DNA of 64,000 nucleotides from Henricia sp. BOLD:AAB3569 (taxonomy: Eukaryota > Echinodermata > Asteroidea > Spinulosida > Echinasteridae), in contig JBBELK010001456.1 of NCBI GenBank assembly GCA_037783545.1, forward strand, positions 1 to 64,000, given 5' to 3'. This document shows, piece after piece, positions 1 to 64,000 of the stretch. Made by a program: the position numbers and the translations under genes. The stretch's first letter is position 1. Each line of letters opens with the position of its first letter. The notes beneath the pieces were generated by a model. That model did no database searches, had not been told where the DNA came from, and worked only from the letters and a program-made list of their open reading frames with translations.

Positions 1-2856
1 TGGTCCAAACGTCGGCAAATTTGGAGGTCGAAAAATGTTCCGACGAACTTCAAATTTTGCATGCCCTAAACTCTCTATATTGCGCACTTGTCATAAAAAT
101 TGACAGACTTTCGCCGGAAATGGCAGAGAAATTTCAAAGTTTAGAAAAAACTGGTTGAGGCTTCCTGACTGCTCTCACGCAAACCGTGGCTGTCTGTACA
201 CACCTCTTTGGGGTACTCCTGAGTTGTGCGCATGCTCAGTCATTCGGACTGTCGTTAACGCACCGCAGTTTGGCTCGGCAATTTGGTGAAAGTGTGGTCC
301 AAACGTCGGCAAATTTGGAGGTCGAAAATGTTCCGACGAACTTCAAATTTTGCATGCCCTAAACTCTCTATATTGCGCACTTGTCATAAAAAAATGGACA
401 GACTTTCGCCGGGAAATGGCAGAGAAATTCAAGTTTAGAAAAAACTGGTTGAGGCTTCCTGACTGCTCTCACGCAAACCGTGGCTGTCTGTACACACCTC
501 TTTGGGGTACTCCTGAGTTGTGCGCATGCTCAGTCATTCGGACTGTCGTTAACGCACCGCAGTTTGGCTCGGCAATTTGGTCAAAGTGTGGTCCAAACGT
601 CGGCAAATTTGGAGGTCGAAAAATGTTCCGACGAACTTCAAATTTTGCATGCCCTAAACTCTCTATATTGCGCACTTGTCATAAAAAATTGACAGACTTT
701 CGCCGGGAAATGGCAGAGAAATTTCAAAGTTTAGAAAAAACTGGGTTGAGGCTTCCTGACTGCTCTCACGCAAACCGTGGCTGTCTGTACACACCTCTTT
801 GGGGTACTCCTGAGTTGTGCGCATGCTCAGTCATTCGGACTGTCGTTAACGCACCGCAGTTTGGCTCGGCAATTTGGTCAAAGTGTGGTCCAAACGTCGG
901 CAAATTTGGAGGTCGAAAAATGTTCCGACGAACTTCAAATTGTGCATGCCCTAAACTCTCTATATTGCGCACTTGTCATAAAAAGTTGACAGACTTTCGC
1001 CGGGAAATGGCAGAGAAATTTCAAAGTTTAGAAAAAACTGGGTTGAGGCTTCCTGACTGCTCTCACGCAAACCGTGGCTGTCTGTACACACCTCTTTGGG
1101 GTACTCCTGAGTTGTGCGCATGCTCAGTCATTCGGACTGTCGTTAACGCACCGCAGTTTGGCTCGGCAATTTGGTCAAAGTGTGGTCCAAACGTCGGCAA
1201 ATTTGGAGGTCGAAAAATGTTCCGACGAACTTCAAATTTTGCATGCCCTAAACTCTCTATATTGCGCACTTGTCATAAAAAATTGACAGACTTTCGCCGG
1301 GAAATGGCAGAGAAATTTCAAAGTTTAGAAAAAACTGGGTTGAGGCTTCCTGACTGCTCTCACGCAAACCGTGGCTGTCTGTACACACCTCTTTGGGGTA
1401 CTCCTGAGTTGTGCGCATGCTCAGTCATTCGGACTGTCGTTAACGCACCGCAGTTTGGCTCGGCAATTTGGTCAAAGTGTGGTCCAAACGTCGGCAAATT
1501 TGGAGGTCGAAAAATGTTCCGACGAACTTCAAATTTTGCATGCCCTAAACTCTCTATATTGCGCACTTGTCATAAAAAATTGACAGACTTTCGCCGGGAA
1601 ATGGCAGAGAAATTTCAAAGTTTAGAAAAAACTGGGTTGAGGCTTCCTGACTGCTCTCACGCAAACCGTGGCTGTCTGTACACACCTCTTTGGGGTACTC
1701 CTGAGTTGTGCGCATGCTCAGTCATTCGGACTGTCGTTAACGCACCGCAGTTTGGCTCGGCAATTTGGTCAAAGTGTGGTCCAAACGTCGGCAAATTTGG
1801 AGGTCGAAAAATGTTCCGACGAACTTCAAATTTTGCATGCCCTAAACTCTCTATATTGCGCACTTGTCATAAAAAAATGGACAGACTTTCGCCGGGAAAT
1901 GGCAGAGAAATTTCAAAGTTTAGAAAAAACTGGGTTGAGGCTTCCTGACTGCTCTCACGCAAACCGTGGCTGTCTGTACACACCTCTGTGGGGTACTCCT
2001 GAGTTGTGCGCATGCTCAGTCATTCGGACTGTCGTTAACGCACCGCAGTTTGGCTCGGCAATTTGGTCAAAGTGTGGTCCAAACGTCGGCAAATTTGGAG
2101 GTCGAAAAATGTTCCGACGAACTTCAAATTTTGCATGCCCTAAACTCTCTATATTGCGCACTTGTCATAAAAAATTGACAGACTTTCGCCGGGAAATGGC
2201 AGAGAAATTTCAAAGTTTAGAAAAAACTGGGTTGAGGCTTCCTGACTGCTCTCACGCAAACCGTGGCTGTCTGTACACACCTCTTTGGGGTACTCCTGAG
2301 TTGTGCGCATGCTCAGTCATTCGGACTGTCGTTAACGCACCGCAGTTTGGCTCGGCAATTTGGTCAAAGTGTGGTCCAAACGTCGGCAAATTTGGAGGTC
2401 GAAAAATGTTCCGACGAACTTCAAATTTTGCATGCCCTAAACTCTCTATATTGCGCACTTGTCATAAAAAATTGACAGACTTTCGCCGGGAAATGGCAGA
2501 GAAATTTCAAAGTTTAGAAAAAAACTGGGTTGAGGCTTCCTGACTGCTCTCACGCAAACCGTGGCTGTCTGTACACACCTCTTTGGGGTACTCCTGAGTT
2601 GTGCGCATGCTCAGTCATTCGGACTGTCGTTAACGCACCGCAGTTTGGCTCGGCAATTTGGTGAAAGTGTGGTCCAAACGTCGGCAAATTTGGAGGTCGA
2701 AAATGTTCCGACGAACTTCAAATTTTGCATGCCCTAAACTCTCTATATTGCGCACTTGTCATAAAAAAATGGACAGACTTTCGCCGGGAAATGGCAGAGA
2801 AATTTCAAGTTTAGAAAAAACTGGGTTGAGGCTTCCTGACTGCTCTCACGCAAACC
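1..2856 (+). repeat. Family A, leftmost block with irregular order of variant units
   Basis: About ten units carrying the same variant types as the rest of A, but not in the regular order. TGGTGA-marker units sit near 183 and 2560, eight units apart instead of the usual six. A unit with the AATTGTGCATG variant (777) is followed directly by AAAAGTTGAC, a junction form that elsewhere follows the TGCATTTCC variant unit, so this copy looks like a recombinant. Two units in this block differ by one base in the A-run before ACTGG. It reads as an unequal-exchange product of the 12-mer to its right. Confidence 0.7.
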
Positions 2857-5800
2857 GTGGCTGTCTGTACACACCTCTTTGGGGTACTCCTGAGTTGTGC
2901 GCATGCTCAGTCATTCGGACTGTCGTTAACGCACCGCAGTTTGGCTCGGCAATTTGGTCAAAGTGTGGTCCAAACGTCGGCAAATTTGGAGGTCGAAAAA
3001 TGTTCCGACGAACTTCAAATTTTGCATGCCCTAAACTCTCTATATTGCGCACTTGTCATAAAAAAATGACAGACTTTCGCCGGGAAATGGCAGAGAAATT
3101 TCAAAGTTTAGAAAAAACTGGGTTGAGGCTTCCTGACTGCTCTCACGCAAACCGTGGCTGTCTGTACACACCTCTTTGGGGTACTCCTGAGTTGTGCGCA
3201 TGCTCAGTCATTCGGACTGTCGTTAACGCACCGCAGTTTGGCTCGGCAATTTGGTCAAAGTGTGGTCCAAACGTCGGCAAATTTGGATTTCGAAAAATGT
3301 TCCGACGAACTTCAAATTGTGCATGCCCTAAACTCTCTATATTGCGCACTTGTCATAAAAAATTGACAGACTTTCGCCGGGAAATGGCAGAGAAATTTCA
3401 AAGTTTAGAAAAAACTGGGTTGAGGCTTCCTGACTGCTCTCACGCAAACCGTGGCTGTCTGTACACACCTCTTTGGGGTACTCCTGAGTTGTGCGCATAC
3501 TCAGTCATTCGGACTGTCGTTAACGCACCGCAGTTTGGCTCGGCAATTTGGTCAAAGTGTGGTCCAAACGTCGGCAAATTTGGAGGTCGAAAAATGTTCC
3601 GACGAACTTCAAATTTTGCATTTCCTAAACTCTCTATATTGCGCACTTGTCATAAAAAGTTGACAGACTTTCGCCGGGAAATGGCAGAGAAATTTCAAAG
3701 TTTAGAAAAAACTGGGTTGAGGCTTCCTGACTGCTCTCACGCAAACCGTGGCTGTCTGTACACACCTCTTTGGGGTACTCCTGAGTTGTGCGCATGCTCA
3801 GTCATTCGGACTTTCGTTAACGCACCGCAGTTTGGCTCGGCAATTTGGTCAAAGTGTGGTCCAAACGTCGGCAAATTTGGAGGTCGAAAAATGTTCCGAC
3901 GAACTTCAAATTTTGCATGCCCTAAACTCTCTATATTGCGCACTTGTCATAAAAAATTGACAGACTTTCGCCGGGAAATGGCAGAGAAATTTCAAAGTTT
4001 AGAAAAAACTGGGTTGAGGCTTCCTGACTGCTCTCACGCAAACCGTGGCTGTCTGTACACACCTCTGTGGGGTACTCCTGAGTTGTGCGCATGCTCAGTC
4101 ATTCGGACTGTCGTTAACGCACCGCAGTTTGGCTCGGCAATTTGGTCAAAGTGTGGTCCAAACGTCGGCAAATTTGGAGGTCGAAAAATGTTCCGACGAA
4201 CTTCAAATTTTGCATGCCCTAAACTCTCTATATTGCGCACTTGTCATAAAAAATTGACAGACTTTCGCCGGGAAATGGCAGAGAAATTTCAAAGTTTAGA
4301 AAAAACTGGGTTGAGGCTTCCTGACTGCTCTCACGCAAACCGTGGCTGTCTGTACACACCTCTTTGGGGTACTCCTGAGTTGTGCGCATGCTCAGTCATT
4401 CGGACTGTCGTTAACGCACCGCAGTTTGGCTCGGCAATTTGGTGAAAGTGTGGTCCAAACGTCGGCAAATTTGGAGGTCGAAAAATGTTCCGACGAACTT
4501 CAAATTTTGCATGCCCTAAACTCTCTATATTGCGCACTTGTCATAAAAAATGGACAGACTTTCGCCGGGAAATGGCAGAGAAATTTCAAAGTTTAGAAAA
4601 AACTGGGTTGAGGCTTCCTGACTGCTCTCACGCAAACCGTGGCTGTCTGTACACACCTCTGTGGGGTACTCCTGAGTTGTGCGCATGCGTCATTCGGACT
4701 GTCGTTAACGCACCGCAGTTTGGCTCGGCAATTTGGTCAAAGTGTGGTCCAAACGTCGGCAAATTTGGAGTTCGAAAAATGTTCCGACGAACTTCAAATT
4801 TTGCATGCCCTAAACTCTCTATATTGCGCACTTGTCATAAAAAATTGACAGACTTTCGCCGGGAAATGGCAGAGAAATTTCAAAGTTTAGAAAAAACTGG
4901 GTTGAGGCTTCCTGACTGCTCTCACGCAAACCGTGGCTGTCTGTACAACACCTCTTTGGGGTACTCCTGAGTTGTGCGCATGCTCAGTCATTCGGACTGT
5001 CGTTAACGCACCGCAGTTTGGCTCGGCAATTTGGTCAAAGTGTGGTCCAAACGTCGGCAAATTTGGAGGTCGAAAAATGTTCCGACGAACTTCAAATTTT
5101 GCATGCCCTAAACTCTCTATATTGCGCACTTGTCATAAAAAATTGACAGACTTTCGCCGGGAAATGGCAGAGAAATTTCAAAGTTTAGAAAAAAACTGGG
5201 TTGAGGCTTCCTGACTGCTCTCACGCAAACCGTGGCTGTCTGTACACACCTCTTTGGGGTACTCCTGAGTTGTGCGCATGCTCAGTCATTCGGACTGTCG
5301 TTAACGCACCGCAGTTTGGCTCGGCAATTTGGTCAAAGTGTGGTCCAAACGTCGGCAAATTTGGAGGTCGAAAAATGTTCCGACGAACTTCAAATTTTGC
5401 ATGCCCTAAACTCTCTATATTGCGCACTTGTCATAAAAAATTGACAGACTTTCGCCGGGAAATGGCAGAGAAATTTCAAAGTTTAGAAAAAACTGGGTTG
5501 AGGCTTCCTGACTGCTCTCACGCAAACCGTGGCTGTCTGTACACACCTCTTTGGGGTACTCCTGAGTTGTGCGCATGCTCAGTCATTCGGACTGTCGTTA
5601 ACGCACCGCAGTTTGGCTCGGCAATTTGGTCAAAGTGTGGTCCAAACGTCGGCAAATTTGGAGGTCGAAAAATGTTCCGACGAACTTCAAATTTTGCATG
5701 CCCTAAACTCTCTATATTGCGCACTTGTCATACAAAAATTGACAGACTTTCGCCGGGAAATGGCAGAGAAATTTCAAAGTTTAGAAAAAACTGGGTTGAG

Positions 5801-6421
5801 GCTTCCTGACTGCTCTCACGCAAACCGTGGCTGTCTGTACACACCTCTTTGGGGTACTCCTGAGTTGTGCGCATGCTCAGTCATTCGGACTGTCGTTAAC
5901 GCACCGCAGTTTGGCTCGGCAATTTGGTCAAAGTGTGGTCCAAACGTCGGCAAATTTGGAGGTCGAAAAATGTTCCGACGAACTTCAAATTTTGCATGCC
6001 CTAAACTCTCTATATTGCGCACTTGTCATAAAAAATTGACAGACTTTCGCCGGGAAATGGCAGAGAAATTTCAAAGTTTAGAAAAAACTGGGTTGAGGCT
6101 TCCTGACTGCTCTCACGCAAACCGTGGCTGTCTGTACACACCTCTTTGGGGTACTCCTGAGTTGTGCGCATGCTCAGTCATTCGGACTGTCGTTAACGCA
6201 CCGCAGTTTGGCTCGGCAATTTGGTGAAAGTGTGGTCCAAACGTCGGCAAATTTGGAGGTCGAAAAATGTTCCGACGAACTTCAAATTTTGCATGCCCTA
6301 AACTCTCTATATTGCGCACTTGTCATAAAAAAATGGACAGACTTTCACCGGGAAATGGCAGAGAAATTTCAAAGTTTAGAAAAAACTGGGTTGAGGCTTC
6401 CTGACTGCTCTCACGCAAACC
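2857..6421 (+). repeat. Family A 12-mer higher-order repeat, copy 1 (about 3565 bp)
   Basis: Twelve consecutive units whose variants recur in the same order in the next 3.57 kb. Order by unit start: 2857 plain; 3154 AATTGTGCATG; 3451 TGCATTTCC followed by AAAAGTTGAC; 3748 near-plain; 4045 CTCTGTGGGG; 4342 TGGTGA; 4639 CTCTGTGGGG plus GGAGTTCG; 4933 plain; 5232 plain, preceded by one extra A; 5529 followed by TACAAAAATTG; 5827 plain; 6124 TGGTGA. The two TGGTGA units split it into two unlike 6-mers. Private to this copy are a 3-bp loss after GCGCATGC in the 4639 unit, one extra base in the 4933 unit, and GGATTTCG in the 3154 unit. Confidence 0.85.
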
Positions 6422-9400
6422 GTGGCTGTCTGTACACACCTCTTTGGGGTACTCCTGAGTTGTGCGCATGCTCAGTCATTCGGACTGTCGTTAACGCACC
6501 GCAGTTTGGCTCGGCAATTTGGTCAAAGTGTGGTCCAAACGTCGGCAAATTTGGAGGTCGAAAAATGTTCCGACGAACTTCAAATTTTGCATGCCCTAAA
6601 CTCTCTATATTGCGCACTTGTCATAAAAAATTGACAGACTTTCGCCGGGAAATGGCAGAGAAATTTCAAAGTTTAGAAAAAACTGGGTTGAGGCTTCCTG
6701 ACTGCTCTCACGCAAACCGTGGCTGTCTGTACACACCTCTTTGGGGTACTCCTGAGTTGTGCGCATGCTCAGTCATTCGGACTGTCGTTAACGCACCGCA
6801 GTTTGGCTCGGCAATTTGGTCAAAGTGTGGTCCAAACGTCGGCAAATTTGGAGGTCGAAAAATGTTCCGACGAACTTCAAATTGTGCATGCCCTAAACTC
6901 TCTATATTGCGCACTTGTCATACAAAATTGACAGACTTTCGCCGGGAAATGGCAGAGAAATTTCAAAGTTTAGAAAAAACTGGGTTGAGGCTTCCTGACT
7001 GCTCTCACGCAAACCGTGGCTGTCTGTACACACCTCTTTGGGGTACTCCTGAGTTGTGCGCATGCTCAGTCATTCGGACTGTCGTTAACGCACCGCAGTT
7101 TGGCTCGGCAATTTGGTCAAAGTGTGGTCCAAACGTCGGCAAATTTGGAGGTCGAAAAATGTTCCGACGAACTTCAAATTTTGCATTTCCTAAACTCTCT
7201 ATATTGCGCACTTGTCATAAAAAGTTGACAGACTTTCGCCGGGAAATGGCAGAGAAATTTCAAAGTTTAGAAAAAACTGGGTTGAGGCTTCCTGACTGCT
7301 CTCACGCAAACCGTGGCTGTCTGTACACACCTCTTTGGGGTACTCCTGAGTTGTGCGCATGCTCAGTCATTCGGACTGTCGTTAACGCACCGCAGTTTGG
7401 CTCGGCAATTTGGTCAAAGTGTGGTCCAAACGTCGGCAAATTTGGAGGTCGAAAAATGTTCCGACGAACTTCAAATTTTGCATGCCCTAAACTCTCTATA
7501 TTGCGCACTTGTCATAAAAAATTGACAGACTTTCGCCGGGAAATGGCAGAGAAATTTCAAAGTTTAGAAAAAACTGGGTTGAGGCTTCCTGACTGCTCTC
7601 ACGCAAACCGTGGCTGTCTGTACACACCTCTGTGGGGTACTCCTGAGTTGTGCGCATGCTCAGTCATTCGGACTGTCGTTAACGCACCGCAGTTTGGCTC
7701 GGCAATTTGGTCAAAGTGTGGTCCAAACGTCGGCAAATTTGGAGGTCGAAAAATGTTCCGACGAACTTCAAATTTTGCATGCCCTAAACTCTCTATATTG
7801 CGCACTTGTCATAAAAAATTGACAGACTTTCGCCGGGAAATGGCAGAGAAATTTCAAAGTTTAGAAAAAACTGGGTTGAGGCTTCCTGACTGCTCTCACG
7901 CAAACCGTGGCTGTCTGTACACACCTCTTTGGGGTACTCCTGAGTTGTGCGCATGCTCAGTCATTCGGACTGTCGTTAACGCACCGCAGTTTGGCTCGGT
8001 AATTTGGTGAAAGTGTGGTCCAAACGTCGGCAAATTTGGAGGTCGAAAAATGTTCCGACGAACTTCAAATTTTGCATGCCCTAAACTCTCTATATTGCGC
8101 ACTTGTCATAAAAAAATGGACAGACTTTCGCCGGGAAATGGCAGAGAAATTTCAAAGTTTAGAAAAAACTGGGTTGAGGCTTCCTGACTGCTCTCACGCA
8201 AACCGTGGCTGTCTGTACACACCTCTGTGGGGTACTCCTGAGTTGTGCGCATGCTCAGTCATTCGGACTGTCGTTAACGCACCGCAGTTTGGCTCGGCAA
8301 TTTGGTCAAAGTGTGGTCCAAACGTCGGCAAATTTGGAGTTCGAAAAATGTTCCGACGAACTTCAAATTTTGCATGCCCTAAACTCTCTATATTGCGCAC
8401 TTGTCATAAAAAATTGACAGACTTTCGCCGGGAAATGGCAGAGAAATTTCAAAGTTTAGAAAAAACTGGGTTGAGGCTTCCTGACTGCTCTCACGCAAAC
8501 CGTGGCTGTCTGTACACACCTCTTTGGGGTACTCCTGAGTTGTGCGCATGCTCAGTCATTCGGACTGTCGTTAACGCACCGCAGTTTGGCTCGGCAATTT
8601 GGTCAAAGTGTGGTCCAAACGTCGGCAAATTTGGAGGTCGAAAAATGTTCCGACGAACTTCAAATTTTGCATGCCCTAAACTCTCTATATTGCGCACTTG
8701 TCATAAAAAATTGACAGACTTTCGCCGGGAAATGGCAGAGAAATTTCAAAGTTTAGAAAAAAACTGGGTTGAGGCTTCCTGACTGCTCTCACGCAAACCG
8801 TGGCTGTCTGTACATACCTCTTTGGGGTACTCCTGAGTTGTGCGCATGCTCAGTCATTCGGACTGTCGTTAACGCACCGCAGTTTGGCTCGGCAATTTGG
8901 TCAAAGTGTGGTCCAAACGTCGGCAAATTTGGAGGTCGAAAAATGTTCCGACGAACTTCAAATTTTGCATGCCCTAAACTCTCTATATTGCGCACTTGTC
9001 ATAAAAAATTGACAGACTTTCGCCGGGAAATGGCAGAGAAATTTCAAAGTTTAGAAAAAACTGGGTTGAGGCTTCCTGACTGCTCTCACGCAAACCGTGG
9101 CTGTCTGTACACACCTCTTTGGGGTACTCCTGAGTTGTGCGCATGCTCAGTCATTCGGACTGTCGTTAACGCACCGCAGTTTGGCTCGGCAATTTGGTCA
9201 AAGTGTGGTCCAAACGTCGGCAAATTTGGAGGTCGAAAAATGTTCCGACGAACTTCAAATTTTGCATGCCCTAAACTCTCTATATTGCGCACTTGTCATA
9301 CAAAAATTGACAGACTTTCGCCGGGAAATGGCAGAGAAATTTCAAAGTTTAGAAAAAACTGGGTTGAGGCTTCCTGACTGCTCTCACGCAAACCGTGGCT

Positions 9401-9989
9401 GTCTGTACACACCTCTTTGGGGTACTCCTGAGTTGTGCGCATGCTCAGTCATTCGGACTGTCGTTAACGCACCGCAGTTTGGCTCGGCAATTTGGTCAAA
9501 GTGTGGTCCAAACGTCGGCAAATTTGGAGGTCGAAAAATGTTCCGACGAACTTCAAATTTTGCATGCCCTAAACTCTCTATATTGCGCACTTGTCATAAA
9601 AAATTGACAGACTTTCGCCGGGAAATGGCAGAGAAATTTCAAAGTTTAGAAAAAACTGGGTTGAGGCTTCCTGACTGCTCTCACGCAAACCGTGGCTGTC
9701 TGTACACACCTCTTTGGGGTACTCCTGAGTTGTGCGCATGCTCAGTCATTCGGACTGTCGTTAACGCACCGCAGTTTGGCTCGGCAATTTGGTGAAAGTG
9801 TGGTCCAAACGTCGGCAAATTTGGAGGTCGAAAAATGTTCCGACGAACTTCAAATTTTGCATGCCCTAAACTCTCTATATTGCGCACTTGTCATAAAAAA
9901 ATGGACAGACTTTCGCCGGGAAATGGCAGAGAAATTTCAAAGTTTAGAAAAAACTGGGTTGAGGCTTCCTGACTGCTCTCACGCAAACC
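6422..9989 (+). repeat. Family A 12-mer higher-order repeat, copy 2 (about 3568 bp)
   Basis: Repeats the variant order of the preceding block at an offset of 3565-3568 bp. Matching landmarks: AATTGTGCATG units at 3154 and 6719, TGCATTTCC units at 3451 and 7016, GGAGTTCG units at 4639 and 8205, and TACAAAAATTG at 5731 and 9299. TGGTGA units at 7907 and 9692 keep the six-unit spacing. A private TACATACC variant (unit 8800) and a TACAAAATTG form after unit 6719 show that the copies have begun to diverge. Confidence 0.85.
7225..7521 (+). repeat. Reference copy of the family A monomer
   Basis: A clean 297-bp unit, phased to begin at TTGACAG, the phase best suited to comparison with B. In order it holds: a block shared with B (TTGACAG, GGGAAATG, GAGAAATTTCA); a diverged middle with GTGGCTGT, GTGCGCATGC and GTTAAC; then a second shared block (GGTCAAAGTGTG, GGCAAATTTGGA, ACTTCAAATTTTGCATGC, CGCACTTGTCAT) ending in a run of six A. 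The second half of the unit is the part best conserved between families. Confidence 0.95.
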
Positions 9990-12525
9990 GTGGCTGTCTG
10001 TACACACCTCTTTGGGGTACTCCTGAGTTGTGCGCATGCTCAGTCATTCGGACTGTCGTTAACGCACCGCAGTTTGGCTCGGAAATTTGGTCAAAGTGTG
10101 GTCCAAACGTCGGCAAATTTGGAGGTCGAAAAATGTTCCGACGAACTTCAAATTTTGCATGCCCTAAACTCTCTATATTGCGCACTTGTCATAAAAAATT
10201 GACAGACTTTCGCCGGGAAATGGCAGAGAAATTTCAAAGTTTAGAAAAAACTGGGTTGAGGCTTCCTGACTGCTCTCACGCAAACCGTGGCTGTCTGTAC
10301 ACACCTCTTTGGGGTACTCCTGAGTTGTGCGCATGCTCAGTCATTCGGACTGTCGTTAACGCACCGCAGTTTGGCTCGGCAATTTGGTCAAAGGGTGGTC
10401 CAAACGTCGGCAAATTTGGAGGTCGAAAAATGTTCCGACGAACTTCAAATTGTGCATGCCCTAAACTCTCTATATTGCGCACTTGTCATAAAAAATTGAC
10501 AGACTTTCGCCGGGAAATGGCAGAGAAATTTCAAAGTTTAGAAAAAACTGGGTTGAGGCTTCCTGACTGCTCTCACGCAAACCGTGGCTGTCTGTACACA
10601 CCTCTTTGGGGTACTCCTGAGTTGTGCGCATACTCAGTCATTCGGACTGTCGTTTGGTGAAAGTGTGGTCCAAACGTCGGCAAATTTGGAGGTCGAAAAA
10701 TGTTCCGACGAACTTCAAATTTTGCATGCCCTAAACTCTCTATATTGCGCACTTGTCATAAAAAAATTGACAGACTTTCGCCGGGAAATGGCAGAGAAAT
10801 TTCAAAGTTTAGAAAAAACTGGGTTGAGGCTTCCTGACTGCTCTCACGCAAACCGTGGCTGTCTGTACACACCTCTTTGGGGTACTCCTGAGTTGTGCGC
10901 ATGCTCAGTCATTCGGACTGTCGTTAACGCACCGCAGTTTGGCTCGGCAATTTGGTCAAAGTGTGGTCCAAACGTCGGCAAATTTGGAGGTCGAAAAATG
11001 TTCCGACGAACTTCAAATTTTGCATGCCCTAAACTCTCTATATTGCGCACTTGTCATAAAAAATTGACAGACTTTCGCCGGGAAATGGCAGAGAAATTTC
11101 AAAGTTTAGAAAAAACTGGGTTGAGGCTTCCTGACTGCTCTCACGCAAACCGTGGCTGTCTGTACACACCTCTTTGGGGTACTCCTGAGTTGTGCGCATG
11201 CTCAGTCATTCGGACTGTCGTTAACGCACCGCAGTTTGGCTCGGCAATTTGGTCAAAGTGTGGTCCAAACGTCGGCAAATTTGGAGGTCGAAAAATGTTC
11301 CGACGAACTTCAAATTGTGCATGCCCTAAACTCTCTATATTGCGCACTTGTCATAAAAAATTGACAGACTTTCGCCGGGAAATGGCAGAGAAATTTCAAA
11401 GTTTAGAAAAAACTGGGTTGAGGCTTCCTGACTGCTCTCACGCAAACCGTGGCTGTCTGTACACACCTCTTTGGGGTACTCCTGAGTTGTGCGCATACTC
11501 AGTCATTCGGACTGTCGTTAACGCACCGCAGTTTGGCTCGGCAATTTGGTCAAAGTGTGGTCCAAACGTCGGCAAATTTGGAGGTCGAAAAATGTTCCGA
11601 CGAACTTCAAATTTTGCATTTCCTAAACTCTCTATATTGCGCACTTGTCATAAAAAGTTGACAGACTTTCGCCGGGAAATGGCAGAGAAATTTCAAAGTT
11701 TAGAAAAAACTGGGTTGAGGCTTCCTGACTGCTCTCACGCAAACCGTGGCTGTCTGTACACACCTCTTTGGGGTACTACTGAGTTGTGCGCATGCTCAGT
11801 CATTCGGACTGTCGTTAACGCACCGCAGTTTGGCTCGGCAATTTGGTCAAAGTGTGGTCCAAACGTCGGCAAATTTGGAGGTCGAAAAATGTTCGGACGA
11901 ACTTCAAATTTTGCATGCCCTAAACTCTCTATATTGCGCACTTGTCATAAAAAATTGACAGACTTTCGCCGGGAAATGGCAGAGAAATTTCAAAGTTTAG
12001 AAAAAACTGGGTTGAGGCTTCCTGACTGCTCTCACGCAAACCGTGGCTGTCTGTACACACCTCTGTGGGGTACTCCTGAGTTGTGCGCATGCTCAGTCAT
12101 TCGGACTGTCGTTAACGCACCGCAGTTTGGCTCGGCAATTTGGTCAAAGTGTGGTCCAAACGTCGGCAAATTTGGAGTTCGAAAAATGTTCGGACGAACT
12201 TCAAATTTTGCATGCCCTAAACTCTCTATATTGCGCACTTGTCATAAAAAATTGACAGACTTTCGCCGGGAAATGGCAGAGAAATTTCAAAGTTTAGAAA
12301 AAACTGGGTTGAGGCTTCCTGACTGCTCTCACGCAAACCGTGGCTGTCTGTACACACCTCTTTGGGGTACTCCTGAGTTGTGCGCATGCTCAGTCATTCG
12401 GACTGTCGTTAACGCACCGCAGTTTGGCTCGGCAATTTGGTCAAAGTGTGGTCCAAACGTCGGCAAATTTGGAGGTCGAAAAATGTTCCGACGAACTTCA
12501 AATTTTGCATGCCCTAAACTCTCTA
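9990..12525 (+). repeat. Family A large duplication, copy 1 (offset 2944 bp)
   Basis: This block recurs nearly unchanged 2944 bp to the right. Shared rare variants in the same order are CTCGGAAATTTGG (10081 and 13025), AATTGTGCATG (units 10287 and 13231), a 27-bp deletion unit (10584 and 13528), TACTACTGAG (units 11746 and 14690) and TTCGGACG (two units in each copy). The offset equals ten 297-bp units, minus 27, plus one base. Edges are approximate: flanking units at about 9.9 and 12.6 kb do not match those at about 12.85 and 15.55 kb. Only a few differences were seen inside, for example AAGGGTGG in the first copy and the base after one A-run. Confidence 0.88.
10584..10854 (+). repeat. Fused family A unit, 271 bp, 27-bp internal deletion
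   Basis: The left part carries the CGCATACTCAG marker, normally followed by a TGCATTTCC unit. The right part carries the TGGTGA marker. The 27 bp from AACGCACC to GGCAATT are absent, leaving CTGTCGTTTGGTGAAAG. The bases TT occur at both ends of the lost segment, so microhomology of about 2-3 bp is possible. Because left and right halves belong to different variant classes, this is a junction between units, not a plain internal deletion. Confidence 0.9.
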
Positions 12526-12933
12526 TATTGCACACTTGTCATAAAAAAATGACAGACTTTCGCCGGGAAATGGCAGAGAAATTTCAAAGTTTAGAAAAAA
12601 CTGGGTTGAGGCTTCCTGACTGCTCTCACGCAAACCGTGGCTGTCTGTACACACCTCTTTGGGGTACTCCTGAGTTGTGCGCATGCTCAGTCATTCGGAC
12701 TGTCGTTAACGCACCGCAGTTTGGCTCGGCAATTTGGTCAAAGTGTGGTCCAAACGTCGGCAAATTTGGATTTCGAAAAATGTTCCGACGAACTTCAAAT
12801 TGTGCATGCCCTAAACTCTCTATATTGCGCACTTGTCATAAAAAATTGACAGACTTTCGCCGGGAAATGGCAGAGAAATTTCAAAGTTTAGAAAAAACTG
12901 GGTTGAGGCTTCCTGACTGCTCTCACGCAAACC

Positions 12934-19382: not shown

Positions 19383-19460
19383 CGGTTAGGGGTATAACCA
19401 CGTAGCCGAGCTCCGCTTTCCCTAAACTCTGAAATTTCTCGGTCATTTCCTAGCGAAAAT
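19356..19460. other. Inverted junction between satellite families A and B
   Basis: Family A ends inside a unit at GGGAAATGGCA, and the next bases, CGGTTAGGGGTATAACC, are the plus-strand form of a B unit. The two bases CA at 19381-19382 fit either family, so the breakpoint has at most about 2 bp of microhomology. Since B is in reverse orientation relative to A, homologous sequence leaves the junction on both sides as an imperfect inverted repeat. A stops at position 27 of the unit, and B runs backwards from about position 82, leaving a non-paired centre of about 55 nt. The first B unit has a private CTCGGTCATTTCC. An assembly misjoin is the main alternative to a real inversion or end-joining event. 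Confidence 0.9.
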
Positions 19461-34270: not shown

Positions 34271-34274
34271 ATCT

Positions 34275-40700: not shown

Positions 40701-40790
40701 TTCCAAATTTGCCGGCATTTGGGACACACTTTGACCTAATTCCCGTCACAATCTGGGGTGAGTCAACGGCCGTACAAATGTACACAAGCG
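35950..40790 (-). repeat. Family B 18-unit higher-order repeat of about 4836 bp, copy 1
   Basis: CTACTTCATTTCCCAACG (36031 and 40870), TCTAGGGTG (36461 and 41297), the 78-bp deletion unit (36820 and 41656), TATGAAATTTCCCC (40041 and 44879) and GTTGTTTGG (about 40680 and 45518) recur at offset 4836-4839. This equals eighteen 273-bp units less 78 bp plus small changes. The block overlaps the previous repeat by about 1.8 kb, so the duplications are nested. Confidence 0.85.
36796..36990 (-). repeat. Shortened B unit, 195 bp, 78-bp deletion (copy 2)
   Basis: Same breakpoint and same altered arm as the unit at 33322, at offset 3474. It was carried by the 13-unit duplication. Confidence 0.92.
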
Positions 40791-53400: not shown

Positions 53401-54400
53401 ATTTTGCATGACAAGTGCGGAATATATACAGTTTGGAGCATGCAAAATTTGAAGTTGGTTGGAAAATTCCTTGATTTCCAAATTTGCCGGCATTTGGGAC
53501 ACACTTTGACCTAATTCCCGTCACAATCTGGGGTGAGTCAACGGCCGTACAAATGTACACCAGCGCATGCGCAGCGCAGGGTGTCCCAACAGCCACGGTT
53601 AGGGGAATAACCACGTAGCCGAGCTCCGCTTTCCTTAAACTCTGAAATTTCTCCGTCATTTCCCAGCGAAAATCTGTCAATTTTGCATGACAAGTGCGGA
53701 ATATATACAGTTTGGAGCATGCAAAATTTGAAGTTGGTTGGAAAATTCCTTGATTTCCAAATTTGCCGGCATTTGGGACACACTTTGACCTAATTCCCGT
53801 CACAATCTGGGGTGAGTCAACGGCCGTACAAATGTACACAAGCGCAGCGCAGGGTGTCCCAACAGCCACGGTTAGGGGTATAACCACGTAGCCGAGCTCC
53901 GCTTTCCCTAAACTCTGAAATGTCTCCGTCATTTCCTAGCGAAAATCTGTCAATTTTGCATGACAAGTGCGGAATATATACAGTTTGGAGCATGCAAAAT
54001 TTGAAGTTGGTTGGAAAATTCCTTGATTTCCAAATTTGCCGGCATTTGGGACACACTTTGACCTAATTCCCGTCACAATCTGGGGTGAGTCAACGGCCGT
54101 ACAAATGTACACCAGCGCAGCGCAGGGTGTCCCAACAGCCACGGTTAGGGGAATAACCACGTAGCCGAGCTCCGCTTTCCCTAAACTCTGACATTTCTCC
54201 GTCATTTCCCAGCGAAAATCTGTCAATTTTGCATGACAAGTGCGGAATATATACAGTTTGGAGCATGCAAAATTTAAAGTTGGTTGGAAAATTCCTTGAT
54301 TTCCAAATTTGCCGGCATTTGGGACACACTTTGACCTAATTCCCGTCACAATCTGGGGTGAGTCAACGGCCGTACAAATGTACACCAGCGCAGCGCAGGG
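50000..54400 (-). repeat. Family B large duplication at offset 7117 bp, copy 1
   Basis: Several rare single changes recur exactly 7117 bp downstream: CTTTTACC (51319 and 58436), AATTGTGCATGAC (51761 and 58878), a five-G run in TTAGGGGGAA (51954 and 59071), CGCTCTCCC (about 52257 and 59374), TATGAAATTTCCCC (52543 and 59660), ATTACCGTC and GTCAATGG (53264 and 60381). Left of about 50.8 kb the offset becomes 7396, so copy 1 has one extra 279-bp unit. Confidence 0.9.
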
Positions 54401-57399
54401 TGTCCCAACAGCCACGGTTAGGGGAATAACCACGTAGCCGAGCTCCGCTTTCCCTAAACTCTGAAATTTCTCCGTCATTTCCTAGCGAAAATCTGTCAAT
54501 TTTGCATGACAAGTGCGGAATATATACAGTTCGGAGCATGCAAAATTTGAAGTTGGTTGGAAAATTCCTTGATTTCCAAATTTGCCGGCATTTGGGACAC
54601 ACTTTGACCTAATTCCCGTCACAATCTGGGGTGAGTCAACGGCCGTACAAATGTACACAAGCGCAGCGCAGGGTGTCCCAACAGCCACGGTTAGGGGAAT
54701 AACCACGTAGCCGAGCTCCGCTTTCCCTGAACTCTGAAATTTCTCCGTCATTTCCCAGCGAAAATCTGTCAATTTTGCATGACAAGTGCGGAATATATAC
54801 AGTTTGGAGCATGCCAAATTTGAAGTTGGTTGGAAAATTCCTTGATTTCCAAATTTGCCGGCATTTGGGACACACTTTGACCTAATTCCCGTCACAATCT
54901 GGGGTGAGTCAATGGCCGTACAAATGTACACCAGCGCAGCGCAGGGTGTCCCAACAGCCACGGTTAGGGGAATAACCACGTAGCCGAGCTCCGCTTTCCC
55001 TAAACTCTGAAATTTCTCCGTCATTTCCCAGCGAAAATCTGTCAATTTTGCATGACAAGTGCGGAATATATACAGTTTGGAGCATGCAAAATTTGAAGTT
55101 GGTTGGAAAATTCCTTGATTTCCAAATTTGCCGGCATTTGGGACACACTTTGACCTAATTCCCGTCACAATCTGGGGTGAGTCAACGGCCGTACAAATGT
55201 ACACCAGCGCATGCGCAGCGCAGGGTGTCCCAACAGCCACGGTTAGGGGAATAACCACGTAGCCGAGCTCCGCTTTCCTTAAACTCTGAAATTTCTCCGT
55301 CATTTCCCAGCGAAAATCTGTCAATTTTGCATGACAAGTGCGGAATATATACAGTTTGGAGCATGCAAAATTTGAAGTTGGTTGGAAAATTCCTTGATTT
55401 CCAAATTTGCCGGCATTTGGGACACACTTTGACCTAATTCCCGTCACAATCTGGGGTGAGTCAACGGCCGTACAAATGTACACAAGCGCAGCGCAGGGTG
55501 TCCCAACAGCCACGGTTAGGGGTATAACCACGTAGCCGAGCTCCGCTTTCCCTAAACTCTGAAATTTCTCCGTCATTTCCTAGCGAAAATCTGTCAATTT
55601 TGCATGACAAGTGCGGAATATATACAGTTTGGAGCATGCAAAATTTGAAGTTGGTTGGAAAATTCCTTGATTTCCAAATTTGCCGGCATTTGGGACACAC
55701 TTTGACCTAATTCCCGTCACAATCTGGGGTGAGTCAACGGCCGTACAAATGTACACCAGCGCAGCGCAGGGTGTCCCAACAGCCACGGTTAGGGGAATAA
55801 CCACGTAGCCGAGCTCCGCTTTCCCTAAACTCTGACATTTATCCGTCATTTCCCAGCGAAAATCTGTCAATTTTGCATGACAAGTGCGGAATATATACAG
55901 TTTGGAGCATGCAAAATTTAAAGTTGGTTGGAAAATTCCTTGATTTCCAAATTTGCCGGCATTTGGGACACACTTTGACCTAATTCCCGTCACAATCTGG
56001 GGTGAGTCAACGGCCGTACAAATGTACACCAGCGCAGCGCAGGGTGTCCCAACAGCCACGGTTAGGGGAATAACCACGTAGCCGAGCTCCGCTTTCCCTA
56101 AACTCTGAAATTTCTCCGTCATTTCCCAGCGAAAATCTGTCAATTTTGCATGACAAGTGCGGAATATATACAGTTTGGAGCATGCAAAATTTGAAGTTGG
56201 TTGGAAAATTCCTTGATTTCCAAATTTGCCGGCATTTGGGACACACTTTGACCTAATTCCCGTCACAATCTGGGGTGAGTCAACGGCCGTACAAATGTAC
56301 ACAAGCGCAGCGCAGGGTGTCCCAACAGCCACGGTTAGGGGAATAACCACGTAGCCGAGCTCCGCTTTCCCTAAACTCTGAAATTTCTCCGTCATTTCCC
56401 AGCGAAAATCTGTCAATTTTGCATGACAAGTGCGGAATATATACAGTTTGGAGCATGCAAAATTTGAAGTTGGTTGGAAAATTCCTTGATTTCCAAATTT
56501 GCCGGCATTTGGGACACACTTTGACCTAATTCGCGTCACAATCTGGGGTGAGTCAACGGCCGTACAAATGTACACCAGCGCAGCGCAGGGTGTCCCAACA
56601 GCCACGGTTAGGGGAATAACCACGTAGCCGAGCTCCGCTTTCCCTAAACTCTGAAATTTCTCCGTCATTTCCTAGCGAAAATCTGTCAATTTTGCATGAC
56701 AAGTGCGGAATATATACAGTTTGGAGCATGCAAAATTTGAAGTTGGTTGGAAAATTCCTTGATTTCCAAATTTGCCGGCATTTGGGACACACTTTGACCT
56801 AATTCCCGTCACAATCTGGGGTGAGTCAACGGCCGTACAAATGTACACCAGCGCAGCGCAGGGTGTCCCAACAGCCACGGTTAGGGGAATAACCACGTAG
56901 CCGAGCTCCGCTTTCCCTAAACTCTGACATTTCTCCGTCATTTCCCAGCTAAAATCTGTCAATTTTGCATGACAAATGCGGAATATATACAGTTTGGAGC
57001 ATGCAAAATTTGAAGTTGGTTGGAAAATTCCTTGATTTCCAAATTTGCCGGCATTTGGGACACACTTTGACCTAATTCCCGTCACAATCTGGGGTGAGTC
57101 AACGGCCGTACAAATGTACACCAGCGCATGCGCAGCGCAGGGTGTCCCAACAGCCACGGTTAGGGGAATAACCACGTAGCCGAGCTCCGCTTTCCCTAAA
57201 CTCTGAAATTTCTCCGTCATTTCCCAGCGAAAATCTGTCAATTTTGCATGACAAGTGCGGAATATATACAGTTTGGAGCATGCAAAATTTGAAGTTGGTT
57301 GGAAAATTCCTTGATTTCCAAATTTGCCGGCATTTGGGACACACTTTGACCTAATTCCCGTCACAATCTGGGGTGAGTCAACGGCCGTACAAATGTACA

Positions 57400-60300
57400 C
57401 AAGCGCAGCGCAGGGTGTCCCAACAGCCACGGTTAGGGGTATAACCACGTAGCCGAGCTCCGCTTTCCCTAAACTCTGAAATTTCTCCGTCATTTCCTAG
57501 CGAAAATCTGTCAATTTTGCATGACAAGTGCGGAATATATACAGTTTGGAGCATGCAAAATTTGAAGTTGGTTGGAAAATTCCTTGATTTCCAAATTTGC
57601 CGGCATTTGGGACACACTTTGACCTAATTCCCGTCACAATCTGGGGTGAGTCAACGGCCGTACAAATGTACACCAGCGCAGCGCAGGGTGTCCCAACAGC
57701 CACGGTTAGGGGAATAACCACGTAGCCGAGCTCCGCTTTCCCTAAACTCTGACATTTCTCCGTCATTTCCCAGCGAAAATCTGTCAATTTTGCATGACAA
57801 GTGCGGAATATATACAGTTTGGAGCATGCAAAATTTAAAGTTAGTTGGAAAATTCCTTGGTTTCCAAATTTGCCGGCATTTGGGACACACTTTGACCTAA
57901 TTCCCGTCACAATCTGGGGTGAGTCAACGGCCGTACAAATGTACACCAGCGCAGCGCAGGGTGTCCCAACAGCCACGGTTAGGGGAATAACCACGTAGCC
58001 GAGCTCCGCTTTCCCTAAACTCTGAAATTTCTCCGTCATTTCCCAGCGAAAATCTGTCAATTTTGCATGACAAGTGCGGAATATATACAGTTTGGAGCAT
58101 GCAAAATTTGAAGTTGGTTGGAAAATTCCTTGATTTCCAAATTTGCCGGCATTTGGGACACACTTTGACCTAATTCCCGTCACAATCTAGGGTGAGTCAA
58201 CGGCCGTACAAATGTACACCAGCGCAGCGCAGGGTGTCCCAACAGCCACGGTTAGGGGAATAACCACGTAGCCGAGCTCCGCTTTCACTAAACTCTGAAA
58301 TTTCTCCGTCATTTCCCAGCGAAAATCTGTCAATTTTGCATGACAAGTGCGGAATATATACAGTTTGGAGCATGCAAAATTTGAAGTTGGTTAGAAAATT
58401 ACTTGATTTCCAAATTTGCCGGCATTTGGGACACACTTTTACCTAATTCCCGTCACAATCTGGGGTGAGTCAACGGCCGTACAAATGTACACCAGCGCAG
58501 CGCAGGGTGTCCCAACAGCCACGGTTAGGGGAATAACCACGTAGCCGAGCTCCGCTTTCCCTAAACTCTGAAATTTCTCCGTCATTTCCCAGCGAAAATC
58601 AGTCAATTTTGCATGACAAGTGCGGAATATATACAGTTTGGAGCATGCAAAATTTAAAGTTGGTTGGAAAATTCCTTGATTTCCAAATTTGCCGGCATTT
58701 GGGACACACTTTGACCTAATTCCCGTCACAATCTGGGGTGAGTCAACGGCCGTACAAATGTACACCAGCGCAGCCCAGGGTGTCCCAACAGCCACGGTTA
58801 GGGGAATAACCACGTAGCCGAGCTCCGCTTTCCCTAAACTCTGAAATTTCTCCGTCATTTCCCAGCGAAAATCTGTCAATTGTGCATGACAAGTGCGGAA
58901 TATATACAGTTTGGAGCATGCAAAATTTGAAGTTGTTTGGAAAATTCCTTGATTTCCAAATTTGCCGGCATTTGGGACACACTTTGACCTAATTCCCGTC
59001 ACAATCTGGGGTGAGTCAACGGCCGTACAAATGTACACAAGCGCAGCGCAGGGTGTCCCAACAGCCACGGTTAGGGGGAATAACCACGTAGCCGAGCTCC
59101 GCTTTCCCTAAACTCTGAAATTTCTCCGTCATTTCCCAGCGAAAATCTGTCAATTTTGCATGACAAGTGCGGAATATATACAGTTTGGAGCATGCAAAAT
59201 TTGAAGTTGGTTGGAAAATTCCTTGATTTCCAAATTTTCCGGCATTTGGGACACACTTTGACCTAATTCCCGTCACAATCTGGGGTGAGTCAACGGCCGT
59301 ACAAATGTACACCAGCGCAGCGCAGGGTGTCCCAACAGCCACGGTTAGGGGAATAACCACGTAGCCGAGCTCCGCTCTCCCTAAACTCTGAAATTTCTCC
59401 GTCATTTCCCAGCGAAAATCTGTCAATTTTGCATGACAAGTGCGAAATATATACAGTTTGGAGCATGCAAAATTTGAAGTTGGTTGGAAAATTCCTTGAT
59501 TTCCAAATTTGCCGGCATTTGGGACACACTTTGACCTAATTCCCGTCACAATCTGGGGTGAGTCAACGGCCGTACAAATGTACACCAGCGCAGCGCAGGG
59601 TGTCCCAACAGCCACGGTTAGGGGAATAACCACGTAGCCGAGCTCCGCTTTCCCTAAACTATGAAATTTCCCCGTCATTTCCTAGCGAAAATCTGTCAAT
59701 TTTGCATGACAAGTGCGGAATATATACAGTTTGGAGCATGCAAAATTTGAAGTTGGTTGGAAAATTCCTTGATTTCCAAATTTGCCGGCATTTGGGAAAC
59801 ACTTTGACCTAATTCTCGTCACAATCTGGGGTGAGTCAACGGCCGTACAAATGTACACAAGCGCAGCGCAGGGTGTCCCAACAGCCACGGTTAGGGGAAT
59901 AACCACGTAGCCGAGCTCCGCTTTCCCTAAACTCTGAAATTTATCCGTCATTTCCCAGCGAAAATCTGTCAATTTTGCATGACAAGTGCGGAATATATAC
60001 AGTTTGGAGCATGCAAAATTTGAAGTTGGTTGGAAAATTCCTTGATTTCCAATTTTGCCGGCATTTGGGACACACTTTGACCTAATTCCCGTCACAATCT
60101 GGGGTGAGTCAACGGCCGTACAAATGTACACAAGCGCAGCGCAGGGTGTCCCAACAGCCACGGTTAGGGGAATAACCACGTAGCCGAGCTCCGCTTTCCC
60201 TGAACTCTGAAATTTCTCCGTCATTTCCCAGCGAAAATCTGTCAATTTTGCATGACAAGTGCGGAATATATACAGTTTGGAGCATGCAAAATTTGAAGTT

Positions 60301-61520
60301 GGTTGGAAAATTCCTTGATTTCCAAATTTGCCGGCATTTGGGACACACTTTGACCTAATTACCGTCACAATCTGGGGTGAGTCAATGGCCGTACAAATGT
60401 ACACCAGCGCAGCGCAGGGTGTCCCAACAGCCACGGTTAGGGGAATAACCACGTAGCCGAGCTCCGCTTTCCCTAAACTCTGAAATTTCTCCGTCATTTC
60501 CCAGCGAAAATCTGTCAATTTTGCATGACAAGTGCGGAATATATACAGTTTGGAGCATGCAAAATTTGAAGTTGGTTGGAAAATTCCTTGATTTCCAAAT
60601 TTGCCGGCATTTGGGACACACTTTGACCTAATTCCCGTCACAATCTGGGGTGAGTCAACGGCCGTACAAATGTACACCAGCGCATGCGCAGCGCAGGGTG
60701 TCCCAACAGCCACGGTTAGGGGAATAACCACGTAGCCGAGCTCCGCTTTCTTTAAACTCTGAAATTTCTCCGTCATTTCCCAGCGAAAATCTGTCAATTT
60801 TGCATGACAAGTGCGGAATATATACAGTTTGGAGCATGCAAAATTTGAAGTTGGTTGGAAAATTCCTTGATTTCCAAATTTGCCGGCATTTGGGACACAC
60901 TTTGACCTAATTCCCGTCACAATCTGGGGTGAGTCAACGGCCGTACAAATGTACACAAGCGCAGCGCAGGGTGTCCCAACAGCCACGGTTAGGGGTATAT
61001 AACCACGTAGCCGAGCTCCGCTTTCCCTAAACTCTGAAATGTCTCCGTCATTTCCTAGCGAAAATCTGTCAATTTTGCATGACAAGTGCGGAATATATAC
61101 AGTTTGGAGCATGCAAAATTTGAAGTTGGTTGGAAAATTCCTTGATTTCCAAATTTGCCGGCATTTGGGACACACTTTGACCTAATTCCCGTCACAATCT
61201 GGGGTGAGTCAACGGCCGTACAAATGTACACCAGCGCAGCGCAGGGTGTCCCAACAGCCACGGTTAGGGGAATAACCACGTAGCCGAGCTCCGCTTTCCC
61301 TAAACTCTGACATTTCTCCGTCATTTCCCAGCGAAAATCTGTCAATTTTGCATGACAAGTGCGGAATATATACAGTTTGGAGCATGCAAAATTTAAAGTT
61401 GGTTGGAAAATTCCTTGATTTCCAAATTTGCCGGCATTTGGGACACACTTTGACCTAATTCCCGTCACAATCTGGGGTGAGTCAACGGCCGTACAAATGT
61501 ACACCAGCGCAGCGCAGGGT
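57400..61520 (-). repeat. Family B large duplication at offset 7117 bp, copy 2
   Basis: Matches 50000-54400 but lacks one 279-bp unit near its left side, as expected of a one-unit unequal exchange. A 2-bp gain (GGTATATAACC, near 61000) is private to this copy. Shared rare changes outnumber private ones. Confidence 0.9.
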
Positions 61521-63178
61521 GTCCCAACAGCCACGGTTAGGGGAATAACCACGTAGCCGAGCTCCGCTTTCCCTAAACTCTGAAATTTCTCCGTCATTTC
61601 CCAGCGAAAATCTGTCAATTTTGCATGACAAGTGCGGAATATATACAGTTTGGAGCATGCAAAATTTGAAGTTGTTTGGAAAATTCCTTGATTTCCAAAT
61701 TTGCCGGCATTTGGGACACACTTTGACCTAATTCCCGTCACAATCTGGGGTGAGTCAACGGCCGTACAAATGTACACAAGCGCAGCGCAGGGTGTCCCAA
61801 CAGCCACGGTTAGGGGAATAACCACGTAGCCGAGCTCCGCTTTCCCTGAACTCTGAAATTTCTCCGTCATTTCCCAGCGAAAATCTGTCAATTTTGCATG
61901 ACAAGTGCGGAATATATACAGTTTGGAGCATGCAAAATTTGAAGTTGGTTGGAAAATTCCTTGATTTCCAAATTTGCCGGCATTTGGGACACACTTTGAC
62001 CTAATTCCCGTCACAATCTGGGGTGAGTCAATGGCCGTACAAATGTACACCAGCGCAGCGCAGGGTGTCCCAACAGCCACGGTTAGGGGAATAACCACGT
62101 AGCCGAGCTCCGCTTTCCCTAAACTCTGAAATTTCTCCGTCATTTCCCAGCGAAAATCTGTCAATTTTGCATGACAAGTGCGGAATATATACAGTTTGGA
62201 GCATGCAAAATTTGAAGTTGGTTGGAAAATTCCTTGATTTCCAAATTTGCCGGCATTTGGGACACACTTTGACCTAATTCCCGTCACAATCTGGGGTGAG
62301 TCAACGGCCGTACAAATGTACACCAGCGCATGCGCAGCGCAGGGTGTCCCAACAGCCACGGTTAGGGGAATAACCACGTAGCCGAGCTCCGCTTTCCTTA
62401 AACTCTGAAATTTCTCCGTCATTTCCCAGCGAAAATCTGTCAATTTTGCATGACAAGTGCGGAATATATACAGTTTGGAGCATGCAAAATTTGAAGTTGG
62501 TTGGAAAATTCCTTGATTTCCAAATTTGCCGGCATTTGGGACACACTTTGACCTAATTCCCGTCACAATCTGGGGTGAGTCAACGGCCGTACAAATGTAC
62601 ACAAGCGCAGCGCAGGGTGTCCCAACAGCCACGGTTAGGGGTATAACCACGTAGCCGAGCTCCGCTTTCCCTAAACTCTGAAATTTCTCCGTCATTTCCT
62701 AGCGAAAATCTGTCAATTTTGCATGACAAGTGCGGAATATATACAGTTTGGAGCATGCAAAATTTGAAGTTGGTTGGAAAATTCCTTGATTTCCAAATTT
62801 GCCGGCATTTGGGACACACTTTGACCTAATTCCCGTCACAATCTGGGGTGAGTCAACGGCCGTACAAATGTACACCAGCGCAGCGCAGGGTGTCCCAACA
62901 GCCACGGTTAGGGGAATAACCACGTAGCCGAGCTCCGCTTTCCCTAAACTCTGACATTTCTCCGTCATTTCCCAGCGAAAATCTGTCAATTTTGCATGAC
63001 AAGTGCGGAATATATACAGTTTGGAGCATGCAAAATTTAAAGTTGGTTGGAAAATTCCTTGATTTCCAAATTTGCCGGCATTTGGGACACACTTTGACCT
63101 AATTCCCGTCACAATCTGGGGTGAGTCAACGGCCGTACAAATGTACACCAGCGCAGCGCAGGGTGTCCCAACAGCCAC

Positions 63179-63194
63179 GGTTAGGGGAATAACC
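63179..63194. repeat. Short inverted repeat GGTTA-N6-TAACC in each B unit (example copy)
   Basis: GGTTA at 63179-63183 and TAACC at 63190-63194 flank GGGGAA. Some units carry GGGGTA in the spacer with the arms kept. The element is absent from A, which retains only AACCGTGG at the homologous place. The arms are short, so the meaning is uncertain. Confidence 0.6.
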
Positions 63195-63260
63195 ACGTAG
63201 CCGAGCTCCGCTTTCCCTAAACTCTGAAATTTCTCCGTCATTTCCCAGCGAAAATCTGTC

Positions 63261-63310
63261 AATTTTGCATGACAAGTGCGGAATATATACAGTTTGGAGC
63301 ATGCAAAATT
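63261..63310. repeat. Perfect 11-bp inverted repeat in each B unit (example copy)
   Basis: AATTTTGCATG at 63261-63271 and CATGCAAAATT at 63300-63310 are exact reverse complements around a 28-nt loop that contains GGAATATATACAG. The stem lengthens to about 13-14 bp if one unpaired A is allowed. The arrangement is present in most of the roughly 163 B units, and variants usually alter only one arm. In A the matching site reads CATAAAAAATT in place of CATGCAAAATT, so its stem is interrupted. A cruciform, a protein-binding dyad or a hairpin in a transcript are all possible. Confidence 0.85.
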
Positions 63311-64000
63311 TGAAGTTGGTTGGAAAATTCCTTGATTTCCAAATTTGCCGGCATTTGGGACACACTTTGACCTAATTCCCGTCACAATCTGGGGTGAGTC
63401 AACGGCCGTACAAATGTACACAAGCGCAGCGCAGGGTGTCCCAACAGCCACGGTTAGGGGAATAACCACGTAGCCGAGCTCCGCTTTCCCTAAACTCTGA
63501 AATTTCTCCGTCATTTCACAGCGAAAATCTGTCAATTTTGCATGACAAGTGCGGAATATATACAGTTTGGAGCATGCAAAATTTGAAGTTGGTTGGAAAA
63601 TTCCTTGATTTCCAAATTTGCCGGCATTTGGGACACACTTTGACCTAATTCGCGTCACAATCTGGGGTGAGTCAACGGCCGTACAAATGTACACCAGCGC
63701 AGCGCAGGGTGTCCCAACAGCCACGGTTAGGGGAATAACCACGTAGCCGAGCTCCGCTTTCCCTAAACTCTGAAATTTCTCCGTCATTTCCCAGCGAAAA
63801 TCTGTCAATTTTGCATGACAAGTGCGGAATATATACAGTTTGGAGCATGCAAAATTTGAAGTTGGTTGGAAAATTCCTTGATTTCCAAATTTGCCGGCAT
63901 TTGGGACACACTTTGACCTAATTCCCGTCACAATCTGGGGTGAGTCAACGGCCGTACAAATGTACACAAGCGCAGCGCAGGGTGTCCCAACAGCCACGGT

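Follow-up and report, generated by a model that had tools for sequence, protein, structure and literature searches.

What kind of sequence fills this 64,000-nucleotide stretch of DNA (the window), and how might the two repeat families within it, related yet inverted relative to each other, have arisen? The window is non-coding satellite DNA, a clear-cut representative of a familiar type of sequence, and it consists of two related, long-separated families in opposite orientation. The evidence for their homology, their internal homogeneity and the absence of coding constraint is set out below, together with the explanations that compete for their origin and arrangement.

Array architecture and the inverted junction

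Analysis with TRF reported positions 1-64000 as tandem repeat throughout, with 297-bp repeats and two 271-bp variants up to 19382 and 273-bp repeats thereafter. Segmentation was performed by wrap-around alignment to two consensus units, designated A and B, and delineated the following features.

1..19382, + strand: array A, a 297-bp satellite unit in 66 segments, partial ones counted
19381..64000, - strand: array B, a 273-bp satellite unit in 165 segments, partial ones counted; homologous to A on the - strand
19381..19382, no strand: A/B inverted junction, with a 2-bp overlap (CA); the sequence reads A to GGCA and on into B from CACGG

Both A and B form long head-to-tail arrays of one unit, as is characteristic of satellite DNA. 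The wrap-around segmentation assigned a length of 297 bp to 48 of the 66 A segments and 298 bp to a further 10, and a length of 273 bp to 127 of the 165 B segments, with 279 bp and 274 bp each being represented by 12. Across the whole window, the longest run of bases outside any unit was 2, and nothing besides A and B is present; neither B monomers nor inverted A monomers were found within array A (1..19382). The AT content of the units is about 53.5%, and CpG depletion is slight at most (observed/expected ratios of 1.00 in A and 0.87 in B).

Eight 16-mers are shared in the window between A and the reverse complement of B (rcB), and no common 16-mer was detected for A and B on the same strand, for A and its own reverse complement (rcA) or for B and rcB. 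It is, therefore, apparent that the window contains a single orientation change, which is located at the same place as the change of family. At this point, A ends after position 240 of its 297-bp unit and B enters at position 14-15 of 273 (the CACGG site), unit positions which are not equivalent in the A/rcB alignment. The truncated monomers that flank the junction are ordinary, A066 having one difference and B001 three differences from consensus, and a real junction would thus be young or kept by exchange.

Homology between the families and homogeneity within them

The consensus units, when doubled, gave a local alignment score of 398 for A and rcB, compared to 18.4 on average and at most 26 for 500 dinucleotide shuffles and to a score of merely 22 for A and B on the same strand. 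Global alignment of consensus A with rcB placed 215 identical and 57 mismatched positions opposite each other, in addition to 26 gap columns. The common core, corresponding to A60-272, spans 213 ungapped positions with 43 differences between A and rcB (79.8% identity), and is exemplified by the following copy.

535..747, + strand: 213-bp core in monomer A003 (unit start 476, unit positions 60-272), identical to the consensus

These values bear out the original prediction in several respects: it had claimed that A and rcB are homologous with an identity of approximately 80%, based on a hand count of 33 differences over about 170 nt (which agrees with 43 of 213), had assigned the families to inverse orientations and had named a global alignment no better than shuffled sequence as grounds for refutation, and the local A/rcB score does indeed lie far above the shuffles. 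Its further statement, that one ancestral unit split in two, is sustained in part. Outside the core, the spacers measure 84 bp in A and 60 bp in B and have in common a 12-bp box, AACCGTGGCTGT, which occurs in the same order in both units. The spacer alignment that includes the AACCGTGGCTGT box exceeded shuffles (global p=0.001, local p=0.003), and neither the spacer to the left of the box (global p=0.07, local p=0.68) nor that to its right (global p=0.19, local p=0.42) aligned above them. As the sequences beside the box align no better than shuffles, a shared ancestor of A and B is shown for the 213-bp core and the 12-bp box only, the remaining spacer being not demonstrably common.

Mismatches within the core were not clumped (p 0.39-0.43), and the longest identical run, of 19 positions, was as expected (p=0.43), with no conserved boxes being evident. 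A/B mismatches were somewhat rarer in A/T runs of at least 4 bases (15%, versus 23% elsewhere), a difference to which no significance is attached.

Within each array, the full-length copies are highly homogeneous, with an identity to their own consensus of 99.0% in A (64 of 66 segments) and 98.9% in B (160 of 165), and a pairwise identity of 98.2% and 98.1%, respectively. The earlier claims that copies within an array differ by few changes and that each family was homogenized separately are both confirmed by these data, given a pairwise identity of approximately 98% and a divergence of approximately 20% between the families (in the core) versus approximately 2% within them. Substitutions totaled 108 in A (31 distinct) and 368 in B (73 distinct), counts which include a few misalignments beside gaps, for example in A001 and A002; because few distinct changes account for many substitutions, variants recur across distant copies. 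Homogeneity within arrays, coupled with the spread of variants between copies, is typical of a satellite.

Monomers of B were most alike at lags of 13, 26 and 18 (family-wise p of 0/1000, 0/1000 and 0.011, respectively, relative to permuted orders at lags 1-40), and neighboring B monomers were no more alike than random pairs (4.76 differences at lag 1, against a grand mean of 4.47). Blocks such as B015-B024 recur, in this case as B030-B039, with no monomer showing more than one difference. No lag passed the permutation test in array A (best family-wise p=0.30), in which one 8-monomer block with a 271-bp variant recurs at lag 10. Length variants of both arrays include the following.

10580..10850, + strand: A variant of 271 bp, aligned with a 27-bp deletion and one inserted base; second copy at 13524-13794, the block being repeated at a lag of 10 monomers
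33308..33502, - strand: B variant of 195 bp, with a 78-bp deletion; seen again at 36782 and at 41618, with lags of 13 and 18 monomers
20187..20465, - strand: B variant of 279 bp, first of 12 copies; 6-bp insertion, GCGCAT on the + strand

The picture is that of exchange in many-monomer blocks without a regular higher-order repeat.

Individual variants are also associated with one another. All three B copies with the 78-bp deletion (33308, 36782 and 41618) carry the B counterpart of the T-to-G change at A position 170. In A itself, 10 monomers have this T-to-G change, and each of the five carriers of a C-to-T change at unit position 177 directly follows one of them, the pairs being A012/A013, A024/A025, A039/A040, A049/A050 and A055/A056 (window 3150-16468). 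Despite the absence of an A lag that passes the permutation test, this 170/177 pairing is regarded as the remnant of an old multi-monomer unit. At the start of the array, A001 and A002 (1-475) contain several one-base indels in homopolymers; A002 has five changes in common with A010 (2557-2852), which indicates that these early indels are at least partly inherited and are not attributable to sequence error alone.

The data give no firm indication that A and B exchange sequence. At diagnostic sites, 1 of 7 distinct mutations in A and 4 of 19 in B were toward the base of the other family, with no drift either way. Unfiltered, 8 variants were common to A and B versus 3.0 expected (p=0.006); following a filter that drops positions within four columns of a gap, sites at which the consensus units differ and the core beyond A259, 3 were common versus 1.6 expected (p=0.21). 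Exchange between the families was thus rejected as a candidate, the unfiltered p value having lost significance only after filtering.

Coding potential, motifs and folding

Both units harbor a shared open reading frame, which was not mentioned in the original finding and which shows no coding constraint. The lengths of both units are multiples of three (99 codons in A and 91 in B), frame 0 of the + strand of A and frame 1 of rcB are stop-free and represent the same frame over the core, and each of the 67 stop-to-stop ORFs with a length of at least 110 aa (17 on the + strand in A and 50 on the - strand in B) is located on the homologous strand, the longest extending to 1015 aa. These properties, along with length variants of +6, -78 and -3 which are in frame and a pN/pS ratio below 1 (0.67 for the open frame), would suit a repetitive protein gene encoded by the A/B units. 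Such a gene is nevertheless extremely improbable: A/B differences are evenly distributed by codon position (13/14/15 in 210 positions of the core), and pN/pS ratios of 0.65 to 1.16 were obtained for the five closed core frames, meaning that the value of 0.67 is not distinctive. The changes within arrays, moreover, match the neutral expectation, with distinct synonymous/replacement/stop changes of 6/23/2 in A (6.7/22.6/1.7 expected) and 18/48/7 in B (19.0/50.0/4.1 expected), stops in B being above expectation. One-base indels are common (23 in A and 22 in B), shuffled units had an open frame by chance in 12% of cases for A and 14% for B (5000 shuffles each), and none of the Pfam families reached the cutoff in a scan of the two consensus translations (best DUF371, E=0.072, 13.5 bits against a cutoff of 25). 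Purifying selection on the reading frame, as a tandem-repeat protein would display, was not apparent, and the absence of coding constraint is that of a satellite. A coding repeat was consequently rejected on the strength of the even codon positions, neutral change counts, indels, chance openness and lack of a Pfam family, and we regard the open frame as coincidental and passed on to both families via the shared core. Automatic annotation could call false genes from the open frames at window positions 290-19250 (+) and 19450-62698 (-).

No sequence-specific function is supported for either A or B. No Rfam family or tRNA was matched in positions 17000-23000 (6001 of 64000 bases, which include both units many times over), and a known RNA gene or tRNA-derived satellite was dismissed on this basis. 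The CENP-B box gave 150 matches at 2 mismatches, versus 168 expected from shuffles, and none that were closer; with the box not above chance, an alpha-satellite-like centromeric satellite carrying it was likewise set aside. Ten-bp periodicity of AA/TT was not seen in A (p=0.23 for the unit and 0.15 for the core) and was weak in B (p=0.026 for the unit and 0.015 for the core); the p values are uncorrected, and no claim is made.

The junction region (19085-19680), when folded as RNA, reached -281.6 versus -167.7 kcal/mol (z -17, 100 shuffles), a strong fold that is a trivial consequence of inverted homologous arrays. Folded singly as DNA, one copy of A (z -0.56) and one of B (z 0.35) did not surpass shuffles, whereby a hairpin at the level of the unit was discounted. 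It is conceivable, albeit improbable, that the inverted architecture is itself functional, i.e., that the arrays constitute a macro-dyad which pairs as a hairpin, cruciform or double-stranded RNA and so helps to organize heterochromatin. The junction RNA fold is compatible with such a role, as are the homologous inverted satellite arrays described in a report on Tribolium (PMC13081366); the triviality of that fold given the inverted homology, the shuffle-level folding of the single copies, the lack of clumping in core conservation (p 0.39-0.43) and the presence of one junction only all argue against it. Scarcely less doubtful is the idea that the genome keeps two diverged subfamilies as adjacent arrays in fixed opposite orientation, with inversion and divergence blocking exchange and preserving a long imperfect dyad. 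If true, this heterologous macro-dyad would mean that paired arrays of different families, perhaps in another lineage, can also follow the Tribolium pattern.

Origin of the arrays and comparison with known systems

The window displays a common 213-bp core, homogeneity within arrays, variants that recur in distant copies, duplication in B of blocks of many monomers and a single sharp inverted junction, at which the phases of the two units are not equivalent. We consider it very probable that A and B represent two sister subfamilies of a non-coding satellite DNA that is presumably of eukaryotic origin, an assessment which applies to the sister-satellite reading and from which the reality of the junction is judged apart. 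It is proposed that one ancestral unit would have given rise to two lineages with changed spacer and length. Unequal exchange or conversion, acting among copies of one orientation, would subsequently have homogenized each lineage, and an illegitimate (microhomology-type) inverted rearrangement may then have put A and B side by side. Inverse orientation, coupled with a divergence of approximately 20%, would now prevent exchange between them. From general knowledge of satellites, a heterochromatic role of the arrays is presumed, and their setting is likely to be pericentromeric or subtelomeric heterochromatin.

Several observations weigh against this reading, and two alternatives were considered. 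The spacers are not demonstrably homologous, and the units may be separate amplifications of related dispersed-element copies; the unfiltered excess of shared A/B variants (p=0.006) and the lack of any A lag passing the permutation test (p=0.30) also count against the sister reading. In its explicit form, the first alternative holds that different segments of one dispersed element, such as a transposon containing the core, were independently amplified, rather than a tandem unit having split. The homologous core flanked by spacers no better than shuffles except for the 12-bp box, as well as the differing unit lengths of A and B, would be accommodated by this explanation, which is rendered unlikely by the AACCGTGGCTGT box, carried by both spacers in a matching order, and by the lack of a Pfam match in the scanned translations of the open frame. 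The second alternative, to which we assign a similarly low probability, concerns the junction, which would be an assembly or library chimera between A and B arrays that are real but not neighbors. Array edges often decay, and the fact that the flanking monomers are as near consensus as internal ones is counted toward a chimera, as are the occurrence of only one junction and its 2-bp overlap. Overlap assemblers, on the other hand, would not join sequences on a 2-bp overlap, and inverted joins at non-equivalent phases are also a product of real rearrangements. The original claim that the families face each other holds for the sequence of the window, with their chromosomal adjacency resting on a single assembled junction.

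On the sister-satellite reading, the window provides a clean snapshot of one satellite dividing into two lineages that cease exchanging, with measured divergence between and within families and an exact junction. A and B constitute a satellite subfamily pair of a known kind for which no existing name was found. Exact matches were absent from viral contigs (6 patterns) and genome contigs (2 patterns), and blastn searches with one A and one B query (E 1e-5) returned none in phages or plasmids; these collections are mostly prokaryotic or viral, and the absence of matches has little bearing on eukaryotes. Neither unit was found in the literature by sequence fragments: one fragment out of six occurs in each of 13 papers with unrelated titles, and no paper contains two out of six further fragments. 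Likewise, no description pairing lengths of 297 and 273 bp with satellite terms was encountered, although one may exist among papers that give a single length.

The comparisons that follow rest on published descriptions. A and B differ from primate alpha satellite, the unit of which is 171 bp, in their unit lengths, their irregular B blocks and the lack of a CENP-B box above chance. They resemble it in comprising sequence-distinguished monomer classes of one satellite, and inversions inside arrays are found there also, being polymorphic in the alpha-satellite arrays of macaque centromeres, according to PMC11062924. BoR300 of Bactrocera oleae is similarly a tandem repeat, with a 298-bp unit, yet PMC3828357 gives an AT content of 60.4% (versus about 53.5% here) and copies that are 88-97% alike (versus about 98% here).

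The closest published architecture among those compared is that of the TmSat1/TmSat2 macro-dyads of Tribolium madens, as described in PMC13081366, in which one element of approximately 110 bp gave rise to two satellites with inverted subarrays and recurrent, conserved inversion sites. Like TmSat1 and TmSat2, A and B would be two satellites from one progenitor, arranged as adjacent arrays of kilobases to tens of kilobases with a switch in orientation, and the window does contain adjacent inverted arrays of homologous satellites (one junction, cores approximately 80% identical). The Tribolium switches, which occur thousands of times, lie inside arrays of one and the same satellite and involve diverged subunits at the inversion sites (10.7% and 23.5%), on the account given in PMC13081366. 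Here, in contrast, the switch coincides with a change of family and is seen once, inverted subarrays of the same satellite are absent (no 16-mer being common to A and rcA or to B and rcB in the window), and the flanking units are not degenerate (one difference in A066 and three in B001). Satellite macro-dyads have, according to the authors of PMC13081366, so far been documented only in Tribolium. Should the A/B junction recur in the genome, it would test orientation as an isolator of satellite subfamilies and inverted architecture beyond Tribolium.
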